A program made the translations under genes and the position numbers. Below the pieces are notes generated by a model, which was given only the letters and a program-made list of their open reading frames with translations, was not told where the DNA came from and ran no database searches. A stretch of DNA of 64,000 nt from Colwellia demingiae (GTDB taxonomy: Bacteria > Pseudomonadota > Gammaproteobacteria > Enterobacterales > Alteromonadaceae), in NCBI RefSeq assembly GCF_007954275.1, contig NZ_VOLT01000002.1:248001-312000 (forward strand). Reading direction: 5' to 3'. Each line of letters opens with the position of its first letter. The first letter of the stretch is position 1. This document shows, piece after piece, positions 12,698 through 15,490 of this stretch.

Positions 12698-14599
12698 ATG
12701 AGTAAAGAAGAGTTAAATTTAACGAATGACTCCAATGAAGTTACATTGGAAAGCGAAGAACGTCGTAAGTTTTTTGGTAAAAGTGCCCTAATCGGTGCAG
12801 GTGTTGTAGCAGCGCCAATGACAGCAGCTATGTTTGCCTCTACTGCGCAAGCACAAAGAAAAGAAATTGCAATGAGCCCTGTTGTACATCCAGGTGAATT
12901 AGATGAGTATTATGGCTTCTGGTCAGGTGGTCATTCTGGTGAAGTCCGTATTATGGGTATCCCATCAATGCGTGAGTTAATGCGTATTCCAGTATTTAAT
13001 ACTGACTCAGCAACAGGCTGGGGTTTAACTGAAGAATCTAAACGTGTTAAAGGCGACAGTGCCGATATCATGATGGGTGACTCTCATCATCCTCATATGA
13101 GTATGACCGATGGTAGTTACAACGGTAAATATGTTTTCATTAATGATAAAGCTAACTCCCGTGTAGCACGTATTCGTTGTGACATCATGAAGTGTGACAA
13201 AATGCTTACGGTACCAAACGTACAAGCAGTTCACGGATTACGTGTACAAAAAGCACCATATACTAAATATGTTGTTTGTAATGGTGAATTTGAAATTCCA
13301 ATGAATAACGATGGTAAAGAAGGCATGAGAGATGTCAGCACTTACCGTTCGTTATACAACGTAATTGACGCAGAAACCATGGAAATGGCTTTCCAAGTAA
13401 TGGTTGACGGTAACTTAGATAATACTGATGCCGATTTTGATGGTAAGTACTTCGCATCTACATGTTACAACTCAGAAATGGGTATGAACTTAGGCGAAAT
13501 GATTTCTGCTGAGCGTGACCACGTTGTTGTATTCAGCTTAGCGGCTTGTGAAGCAGCACTTAAAGCGGGTAAATTCAAAACTTATAACGGTAATGATGTA
13601 CCAGTACTAGATGGTCGTAAAGGTTCTGAATTAACACGTTATATTCCAGTTCCAAAATCACCTCATGGTTTGAATACTTCGCCAGAAGGTAAATACTTCA
13701 TGGCAAATGGTAAATTATCACCAACAGTAACAGTAATTTCTATTGCTAAGTTAGATGATTTATTTGCAAACAAAATTAAACCTCGTGACACTGTAGTAGC
13801 TGAGCCAGAGTTAGGTTTAGGTCCTTTACATACAGCGTTTGATGGCCGCGGTAACGCTTACACTACATTATTCCTAGATAGCCAAATTGCTAAATGGAAT
13901 GTTGAAGACGCAATCAAAGCGTACAATGGCGAAAAAGTTAACTATTTACGTCAAAAACTTGATGTGCATTATCAACCAGGCCATAACCATACAACACAAG
14001 GTGAATCACGTGATGCTGATGGTAAATGGTTAGTTGTTCTATGTAAGTTCTCTAAAGATAGATTCTTACCTACTGGACCACTTAAACCAGAAAATGATCA
14101 ATTAATTGATATTTCTGGTGATGAAATGAAAATTGTTCATGATGGTCCAACATTTGCTGAACCGCATGACTGTATTATGGTACACCGTAGTAAAATTAAG
14201 CCTAAGAAAGTTTATACCCGTGATGAGCCAACTTTTGCAGAAACATTAGCAATCGCGAAGCGTGATGGTGTTAATCCAATGAGTGACAATAAAGTTATTC
14301 GCGATGGCAAAAAAGTTCGTGTATATATGACTTCTGTTGCACCTACCTACGGTATGAGTGAGTTTACTGTAAAACTAGGTGATGAAGTCACCGTAATCAT
14401 AACTAACCTTGACCAAGTAGAAGATGTAACTCATGGTTTCTGTATGACTAACCACGGCGTACAAATGGAAATTGGTCCTCAACAGACTTCTTCTATTACC
14501 TTTACTGCCAACAAACCTGGCGTACAGTGGTATTACTGTAACTGGTTCTGTCATGCACTACACATGGAAATGCGTGGTCGTATGTTTGTTGAAGCTTAA
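12698..14599 (+). CDS. nosZ: Nitrous-oxide reductase NosZ (clade I, Tat-exported)
   Basis: NosZ reduces N2O to N2 in the periplasm, the last step of denitrification. The 633-aa protein starts with a Tat signal carrying the twin Arg (RRKFF, residues 22-26) and a cleavage-like TAQAQ, which places it in clade I. The N-terminal beta-propeller has His-rich CuZ ligands (DSHHPHMS, HGL, HNHT, EPHDC). The C-terminal cupredoxin has a complete CuA site: the THGF His, then C614, C618, H622 and M625. A good GGAG site precedes the ATG. Partial copies of its 3' end are repeated downstream (14630-15320). Confidence 0.98.
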   Translation: MSKEELNLTNDSNEVTLESEERRKFFGKSALIGAGVVAAPMTAAMFASTAQAQRKEIAMSPVVHPGELDEYYGFWSGGHSGEVRIMGIPSMRELMRIPVFNTDSATGWGLTEESKRVKGDSADIMMGDSHHPHMSMTDGSYNGKYVFINDKANSRVARIRCDIMKCDKMLTVPNVQAVHGLRVQKAPYTKYVVCNGEFEIPMNNDGKEGMRDVSTYRSLYNVIDAETMEMAFQVMVDGNLDNTDADFDGKYFASTCYNSEMGMNLGEMISAERDHVVVFSLAACEAALKAGKFKTYNGNDVPVLDGRKGSELTRYIPVPKSPHGLNTSPEGKYFMANGKLSPTVTVISIAKLDDLFANKIKPRDTVVAEPELGLGPLHTAFDGRGNAYTTLFLDSQIAKWNVEDAIKAYNGEKVNYLRQKLDVHYQPGHNHTTQGESRDADGKWLVVLCKFSKDRFLPTGPLKPENDQLIDISGDEMKIVHDGPTFAEPHDCIMVHRSKIKPKKVYTRDEPTFAETLAIAKRDGVNPMSDNKVIRDGKKVRVYMTSVAPTYGMSEFTVKLGDEVTVIITNLDQVEDVTHGFCMTNHGVQMEIGPQQTSSITFTANKPGVQWYYCNWFCHALHMEMRGRMFVEA

Positions 14600-14730
14600 T
14601 AATAGCTTCATGCGTGATGTTACCGAAAAGGTTCTGTCACGCAGTTAATATACTACAAGCATGAAAATGCGTGGCCGTATGTTCGTTGAAGCATAAGCTT
14701 TAACTTAACAAGCAGTTAATTAAGAATTCA

Positions 14731-14765
14731 AAAGCTCGACACTGAAAAGTGTCGGGCTTTTTTGT
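14731..14765 (+). terminator. nosZ terminator, array copy 1
   Basis: AAAGCTCGACACT (14731-14743) pairs with AGTGTCGGGCTTT (14748-14760) around GAAA, with one T-G pair, followed by a T-run. This is a textbook intrinsic terminator and the first met by transcripts leaving nosZ. Confidence 0.92.
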
Positions 14766-14886
14766 GATCTTAATTACAGGAAACTGGTTCTGTCATGCAG
14801 TTAATATACTACAAGCATGAAAATGCGTGGTCGTATGTTCGTTGAAGCATAAGCTTTAACTTAACAAACAGTTAATTAAGAATTCA

Positions 14887-14921
14887 AAAGCTCGACACTG
14901 AAAAGTGTCGGGCTTTTTTGT
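14887..14921 (+). terminator. nosZ terminator, array copy 2
   Basis: This is identical in hairpin and T-run to the copy 156 bp upstream. Confidence 0.9.
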
Positions 14922-15042
14922 GATCTTAATAACAGGAAACTGGTTCTGTCATGCAGTTAATATACTACAAGCATGGAAATGCGTGGTCGTATGTTCGTTG
15001 AAGCATAAGCTTTAACTTAACAAGCAGTTATTTAAGAATTCA

Positions 15043-15077
15043 AAAGCTCGACACTGAAAAGTGTCGGGCTTTTTTGT
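15043..15077 (+). terminator. nosZ terminator, array copy 3
   Basis: This is identical in hairpin and T-run to the two copies upstream. Confidence 0.9.
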
Positions 15078-15203
15078 GATTTTAATTACAGGAAACTGGT
15101 TCTGTCATGCCGTTAATATACTACAAGCATGAAAATGCGTGGTCGTTTGTTCGTTGAAGCTTAAGCTTAAGCTTTAACTTAACAAACAGTTAATTAAGAA
15201 TTC

Positions 15204-15238
15204 AAAAGTCCAACATTGAAAAATGTCGGGCTTTTTTG
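15204..15238 (+). terminator. Degenerate nosZ terminator, array copy 4
   Basis: The stem has drifted (AAAGTCCAACATT against AATGTCGGGCTTT), leaving mismatches near the base but keeping the T-run. It is probably weaker than copies 1-3. Confidence 0.7.
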
Positions 15239-15490
15239 TGATCTTAATTACAGGAAACTGGTTCTGTCATGCAGTTAATATACTACAAGCATGAAAATAC
15301 GTGGTCGTATGTTTGTTGAATTGAAGCCAGACCAACACGCAAGATATACGTTTTCCATCTCATCAGTTCAGGTTATCAATCTTATAAACCTACGAAATAC
15401 CGTGCCCAAAAAACATAAGAACAGCTATCCACGATATTGCAAGGATATTTATATTTTTATTGCCTATTATGAGCTATAAATGAAACTTAT

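Follow-up and report, generated by a model that had tools for sequence, protein, structure and literature searches.

Tandem copies of the nosZ coding end behind nosZ in Colwellia and related genera, possibly kept gene-like by recombination

The stretch of Colwellia demingiae DNA analysed here, 64,000 nucleotides of contig NZ_VOLT01000002.1 (hereafter the window), carries a tandem array of five truncated copies of the 3′ coding end of nosZ, directly behind the intact gene for NosZ, the bacterial enzyme known for nitrous oxide removal. Units of the same kind stand behind nosZ in related genomes, and on average the gene-derived piece of such units resembles the nosZ of its own genome more than that of others. 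The explanation that we favour, at somewhat better than even chances, is that the nosZ end was duplicated once in an ancestor, that recombination has kept the copies similar to the live gene, and that hairpins and terminators of the array would terminate the nosZ message, guard it and insulate nosDFYL downstream.

The window features listed next all lie on the forward strand. The nosZ gene (12698..14599; assigned from the list of open reading frames (ORFs) and from nosZ relatives) encodes 633 amino acids and ends in YCNWFCHALHMEMRGRMFVEA and a stop. Its own end, which we count as unit 0 (14544..14599), holds the W-F-C-H-A codons at 14544-14556 and the last 12 codons, stop included, at 14564-14599. 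Directly 3′ of the stop, folding gives a hairpin (GCGTGA...TCACGC, 14612..14642) which an earlier note on this DNA had overlooked, and whose 3′ arm is nosZ-derived GTTCTGTCACGC. Unit 1 (14630..14696) is composed of nosZ-derived GGTTCTGTCACGC, an insertion (14643-14660) and a copy of the last 12 codons (14661-14696); units 2, 3 and 4 occupy 14786..14852, 14942..15008 and 15098..15164, and unit 5 (15260..15320) ends short of its stop. A unit in general comprises a hairpin with the W-F-C-H-A codons of nosZ as its 3′ arm, an insertion of about 17 nt and the last 12 codons of nosZ, with a terminator in the tails of some units only. The sequence GGTTCTGTCAYGC (W-F-C-H-A codons) begins at 14544 in nosZ and at 14630, 14786, 14942, 15098 and 15260 in the copies, all five of which have an 18-nt insertion in common, starting at 14643, 14799, 14955, 15111 and 15273. 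These coordinates agree with Tandem Repeats Finder (a single array at 14630-15320, period 156, 4.4 copies, 94% matches) and bear out the five copies with spacings of 156, 156, 156 and 162 bp of the earlier note; copies of 233 nt recur at spacings of 156, 156 and 162. That each copy encodes NWFCHA, and then MRGRMFVEA with a stop, is correct with exceptions: copy 1 reads KRFCHA, copy 4 reads MRGRLFVEA, and copy 5 ends before the stop. Four intrinsic terminators, also described before, are found as predicted hairpins of 12 bp with 4-nt loops, at 14732..14759 (terminator 1, with a GAAA loop and a T run), 14888..14915, 15044..15071 and, weaker, 15206..15233. The stretch 14597-14770 as a whole folds with a z-score of -6.39. 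A search of the genome itself with a unit-long query returned nosZ's own end as the sole other match.

The relationship between copies and gene was assessed on the last-12-codon piece of 40 units from 16 genomes. On average this piece differs at 0.103 per site from the nosZ of its own genome and at 0.161 from the nosZ of others (permutation p about 5e-5), and seven units from five genomes (two at locus L007, two at L063 and one each at L024, L069 and L078) are identical to their own nosZ at 36 of 36 positions and to none of 32 others. Units are more alike within an array than between genomes, and copy number differs between close relatives, as in concerted evolution. The differences between units and their own nosZ fall on codon positions 1, 2 and 3 as 39/18/74, whereas those between one nosZ and another (pairs not independent) fall as 502/64/2020, so that first and second positions account for 57 of 131 and 566 of 2586 differences, respectively. 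Small proteins encoded in the units were considered and rejected, as reading frames are broken and first- and second-position changes frequent.

The same 39 genomes of the genus, among them that of the window, were searched both for the repeat and for nosZ. Sixteen of the 24 that carry nosZ have units 3′ of it (G000, G004, G008, G009, G011, G012, G013, G015, G018, G020, G022, G024, G025, G031, G035 and G036, with fragments only in G024, G025 and G031); one (G033, locus L021) has the hairpin part and no unit, and seven have no unit behind nosZ (G001, G006, G007, G016, G017, G029 and G030). G007 has two nosZ genes on different contigs (L138, L150), both without array. The 15 genomes of the genus without nosZ gave no repeat match at E <= 0.001. 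Of 80 named nosZ loci drawn from all genomes, 8 have units; two of these 8 (L063, L069) are from other genera of the family and bring the genomes with units behind nosZ to 18. A query blind to the more distant units matched 24 of 395 family genomes at E <= 1e-6: 9 of the same genus, those of L063 and L069, 12 with the nosZ end only (no unit in the next 220 bases), and G085, discussed below. Comparison of nosZ downstream regions, which the earlier note had proposed, finds the array recurring with varying copy number. Arrays hold 1 to 7 units, and among close relatives the number is 5 in the window, 4 in L007, 2 in L036 and 1 in L035, the last two counts being possibly too low because these are fragmented environmental assemblies.

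As a control, the 700 bases downstream of each of 767 ORFs (180 amino acids or more; 91 nosZ-region loci plus the window) were checked for a copy of the ORF's own end; 16 ends have one, of which 15 are nosZ. The sole other copied end belongs to an ORF of L047 ending at 1435 (score 50). No unit was found away from nosZ in the 39 genomes, nor was there any match in phages and plasmids (blastn) or viral contigs (exact pattern), and all Rfam matches were far below gathering scores. An exact pattern of the hairpin, which misses the window's own hairpin, matched twice in the 39 genomes, both times behind nosZ.

The hairpin at 14612-14642 has a folding energy of -16.2 kcal/mol (z -3.6). Between first units of distant genomes (104 pairs from 17 genomes, pairs not independent) the left arm of the hairpin is 0.79 identical and the loop 0.34. 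As nosZ has the TG of a tryptophan codon at the position of the loop, copying from nosZ cannot keep the arms and yet leave the loop free; selection on the hairpin can explain this, as can template-switch repair of the palindrome. The invariance of the right arm is partly built in by the search pattern. Of the 21 units without a terminator tail immediately before them, 17 form strong hairpins (z -2.3 to -5.4; -11 to -21 kcal/mol), whereas all 24 units with such a tail directly in front lack a strong hairpin (z -1.8 to 1.2); classes were assigned by eye, and the first unit of L036 is counted among the 21 despite a terminator further upstream. Most of the inner palindrome is retained behind the terminators of L013, L014 and L041.

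The insertion, which is absent from nosZ, is mostly uniform inside each array (exceptions are L011, L019 and the last unit of L063) and differs among distant genomes. Ungapped identity between first units of distant genomes is 0.41 (104 pairs from 17 genomes, pairs not independent; L051, which lacks the core, was excluded), where chance identity at four-fold sites is 0.39: between distant genomes the insertion has drifted to near chance.

Terminators are found in nosZ-nosD gaps with and without arrays. Fifteen distinct 28-nt forms align without gaps, 97.8% of cells pair, and 7 of the 12 stem pairs have changed on both sides, against at most 2 in slid versions; on four of five covariation measures none of 500 shuffles scored as high. 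The 15 were chosen by us: the forms of L024 and L044 were added by reading the sequence after our terminator rule had missed them, and terminators of other length or loop were excluded, among them those of L013, L014, L019, L026, L037, L039, L045, L049, L051, L063, L065, L069 and L070; further exclusions were the first two of L041, the last two of L007, the fifth of L010 and that of L021. A stricter consensus scan lists one of the window's four on the forward strand (10 kb in total gave 7 against 6.6 expected), and the case for terminators therefore rests on the hairpin survey and covariation. The G+C-containing stem, short loop, T run and compensatory stem changes are those of intrinsic (Rho-independent) terminators, also known in tandem; those described here differ in having been multiplied inside a unit built from the coding end of a gene. 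Their alignment and covariation with and without arrays point to the terminator as an old part of the nosZ tail, likely under selection, that was multiplied along with the units in some lineages. By our rule, gaps hold 4 terminators in the window, 5 each in L007 and L010, 3 each in L013, L014 and L041, and 2 in L036; 25 of the remaining 26 gaps (33 in all) have at most one, and the exception, the unit-free L023, has two. The notion that each repeat carries its own terminator thus does not extend to the relatives, where, by the same rule, at least two occur in 7 of the 18 unit-bearing genomes and one or none in the other 11.

The array was correctly placed by the earlier note between the nosRZ and nosDFYL units. 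In the window nosD (15564..16952; an ORF, also used as protein query in tblastn) leads the downstream nosDFYL unit and is preceded by a putative FNR-like box TTAATCGAGATCAA at 15491..15504. Of the 33 sequences inspected, many but not all have this box or one like it behind nosZ, and from this nosDFYL is likely driven separately behind a terminated nosZ. The nosZ-nosD gap measures 74-307 bp in nearly all measured unit-free loci, and 1.6-4.6 kb with ordinary genes inside in L115, L116, L117, L118, L119, L041 and L037, including in L118, L119 and L041 a large gene on the opposite strand that we take to be glutamate-synthase-like. A separate stretch lies directly behind nosZ in G030 (L116:1991-2175) and G001 and behind a unit in G015. 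It is identical at 184 of 214 positions between G030 and G001, whose nosZ agree at just 0.51 of four-fold sites, and weaker relatives occur elsewhere in 13 of the 39 genomes; the stretch may be a dispersed element, or the downstream region may have been exchanged. Palindromes (CGTCATTCCGG...GCCGGAATCC) resembling repetitive extragenic palindromic (REP) sequences occur behind nosZ in L011, L021 and L037, in L011 and L021 beside array remnants.

The distribution of the array on the nosZ tree is patchy. In a tree of 50 rows, one clade of 25 comprises 17 unit-bearing genomes, L021 with its hairpin, and seven rows without; this tree counts 7 array changes and lacks L078. A larger tree counts 10, which is too many since L148, with the same nosZ as L054, was labelled as lacking the array. 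There the unit-bearing L078 falls outside the clade of 25 and groups with L037 (100/98), so that the array spans more than one clade. The insertion of L078 is 0.89 identical to those of L011 and L016, and its nosZ agrees with theirs at just 0.51 and 0.48 of four-fold sites, which suggests that the array moved laterally, 17 nt being too short for certainty. An apparent hairpin remnant stands behind the terminator of L038, which has no units, as expected after loss. One ancestral duplication, followed by losses and perhaps a lateral move, is the likely source of this pattern. The earlier note had proposed that one damaged unit was amplified. A single origin stands as an inference, since the copies share one insertion; the array is not, however, a single damaged unit of this strain, as units occur in 18 genomes, in many of which nosZ agrees at only about half of four-fold sites. 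In another genus, g8, the nosZ of two genomes (L069, L166) nests next to the window's clade, and just one of the two has the array, possibly a case of nosZ transfer.

A unit without nosZ was found in G085, a genome of another genus that is 85% complete; the empty search for nosZ would by itself prove nothing. The unit lies in a decayed nos locus (L189:7488-9748), bordered on one side by a relative (61%) of the 142-amino-acid gene adjoining nosR in the window and on the other by nosL (69%), a broken nosY and a scrap of nosD, with no match to nosR, nosZ or nosF within 19.7 kb of the locus; its hairpin still folds at -13.8 kcal/mol. The setting amid the remains of a nos locus indicates that nosZ was lost and the unit outlived it. 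The gap beside the orphan unit holds ORFs that are presumably GGDEF-like and TrmH-like.

The favoured explanation can be set out as follows. The nosZ end would first have been copied once behind itself, and the copy would then have acquired the insertion, along with an arm able to pair with the W-F-C-H-A codons as a hairpin. Units may have been gained and lost through exchange between direct repeats, an exchange which the end of nosZ would join as unit zero, keeping non-coding copies gene-like; homogenisation would proceed by unequal exchange or gene conversion, with nosZ mostly as donor and seldom as recipient. Finally, the module is predicted to leave the nosZ message with a structured 3′ end and to halt transcription before nosD. 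The earlier steps draw on comparison; the last, an effect of the array on the nosZ message or on the insulation of nosDFYL, we infer.

Several observations weigh against this explanation. Units in the window are just weakly nearer to their own nosZ (0.080 against 0.111), and three of the five have 4-8 foreign nosZ closer than their own; L051 (0.25 against 0.18) and L019 (0.278 against 0.281) show no own-gene likeness at all. In 7 of 9 arrays nosZ is closer to the first unit than to the last, a trend short of significance (p 0.18), with the opposite order in the window and L078 and a tie in one further array. Gapped identity of the insertion is 0.57-0.61 for pairs with less than 0.6 four-fold identity, against 0.50 when shuffled, and insertion identity tracks nosZ divergence (r 0.47), so that the insertion is not wholly at chance. 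Four of the 21 hairpins mentioned above are weak (z 0.3 to -1.2; L024, L054 and one each in L069 and L078), and an alignment of 14 hairpin forms (L024, L036, L054, the third unit of L078 and the second of L063 left out) shows no pair changed on both sides, because the right arm hardly varies, partly as a result of the search pattern. On the fifth covariation measure the terminators do not stand out from shuffles (473/500). Lastly, a neutral array would explain everything but the hairpin arms and terminators.

Such a neutral satellite is the most serious competitor, a possibility to which we give well under even chances: the nosZ end was duplicated by chance, slippage and unequal exchange did the rest without any function, and hairpins and terminators were copied along. 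The near four-fold rate at which the insertion evolves, the copy number of 1 to 7, the missing array in 7 of 24 nosZ genomes of the genus, and the single terminator that suffices in most array-free relatives all fit this. The left arm, conserved at strong divergence beside a free loop and insertion, does not, and neither do the compensatory changes in the terminator stem, though these hold for array-free relatives too; moreover, such close direct repeats would hardly be expected to survive uncollapsed for so long. Simple slippage alone, as the earlier note had considered, fails on the conserved arms with their free loop, on terminator compensation and on the match to the own nosZ.

Integrative elements are known to leave attachment scars, in which displaced copies of gene ends stand at the 3′ ends of tRNA and other genes, and the displaced nosZ ends behind an intact gene are of similar appearance. 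The units might thus be such scars, or a tiny mobile unit inserting at the nosZ 3′ end, which we regard as improbable. What stands behind nosZ in L020 and L023 is found in L024 behind the unit's last-12-codon copy, a clean pair of empty and filled sites, and the G085 unit stands without nosZ. However, exact deletion between two 36-bp direct repeats yields the same pair, the G085 unit lies within nos-locus remains, and neither copies away from nosZ nor matches in phages, plasmids or viral contigs were found in the searches above. The shared insertion inside the copied end is a further difference from known scars, and inspection by eye, without family search, of the ORFs behind nosZ at eight loci showed no integrase, transposase or other recombinase.

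Silent-cassette systems (MgPar/MgPa of Mycoplasma genitalium, pilS/pilE of Neisseria), whose truncated copies exchange with an expressed gene, are the precedent for a reservoir from which the CuA-coding nosZ end could be repaired or converted, also raised by the earlier note. Judging by their likeness, units and the nosZ of the same genome do seem to share sequence, and in a ranking of blocks by change the nosZ end stands somewhat higher in the array clade (62nd percentile) than in other rows (15th). Against this, its third-position changes in the array clade are ordinary (59 in the last 12 codons, 55.0 +/- 12.9 in other blocks), there is no sign that nosZ gains, and the copies, unlike silent cassettes, are tandem, lie directly behind the gene and hold stops, frameshifts and missense changes. 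The protein end of NosZ is nearly invariant, with no sign of the diversifying role or raised variation that silent cassettes would produce. A reservoir is therefore more doubtful still. An assembly artefact is scarcely credible: short repeats do misassemble easily, and two close relatives with fragmented environmental assemblies show one or two units, but arrays of diverged units occur in independent assemblies, two of them single-contig genomes (G009 with 4 units, G013 with 3), which rules out assembly error as a general cause, and the window array sits inside a 662-kb contig.

Tandem terminators and intergenic hairpins are common, and REP sequences and bacterial interspersed mosaic elements (BIMEs) are hairpins repeated between genes behind operons, able to guard messages from 3′ decay. 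The nosZ array shares the repeated intergenic hairpins with REP/BIME and differs in standing at one gene only, without dispersal, and in being built from that gene's codons. Counterparts of its parts are thus known, but we found no report of an array made from a gene's own coding end in the open-licence literature, where absence is weak evidence.

It is tempting to go further and regard nosZ as unit zero of its own satellite, in which coding selection would shape the copies by way of recombination while the copies supply a needed hairpin and terminators, a proposal that we make tentatively and with less assurance than the explanation favoured above. The last codons of nosZ, made into a hairpin by an adjacent copy of the CuA codons, would then be a module at the 3′ end that renews itself. 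If true, similar “tail satellites” might exist unnoticed at other genes, since broken gene ends are passed over in annotation. The nosZ array offers a natural and testable example of concerted evolution that links a functional coding end with non-coding copies next to it, with terminators and hairpins made from the gene's own codons, and it is a warning that the codons for the CuA site may themselves be exposed to recombination.

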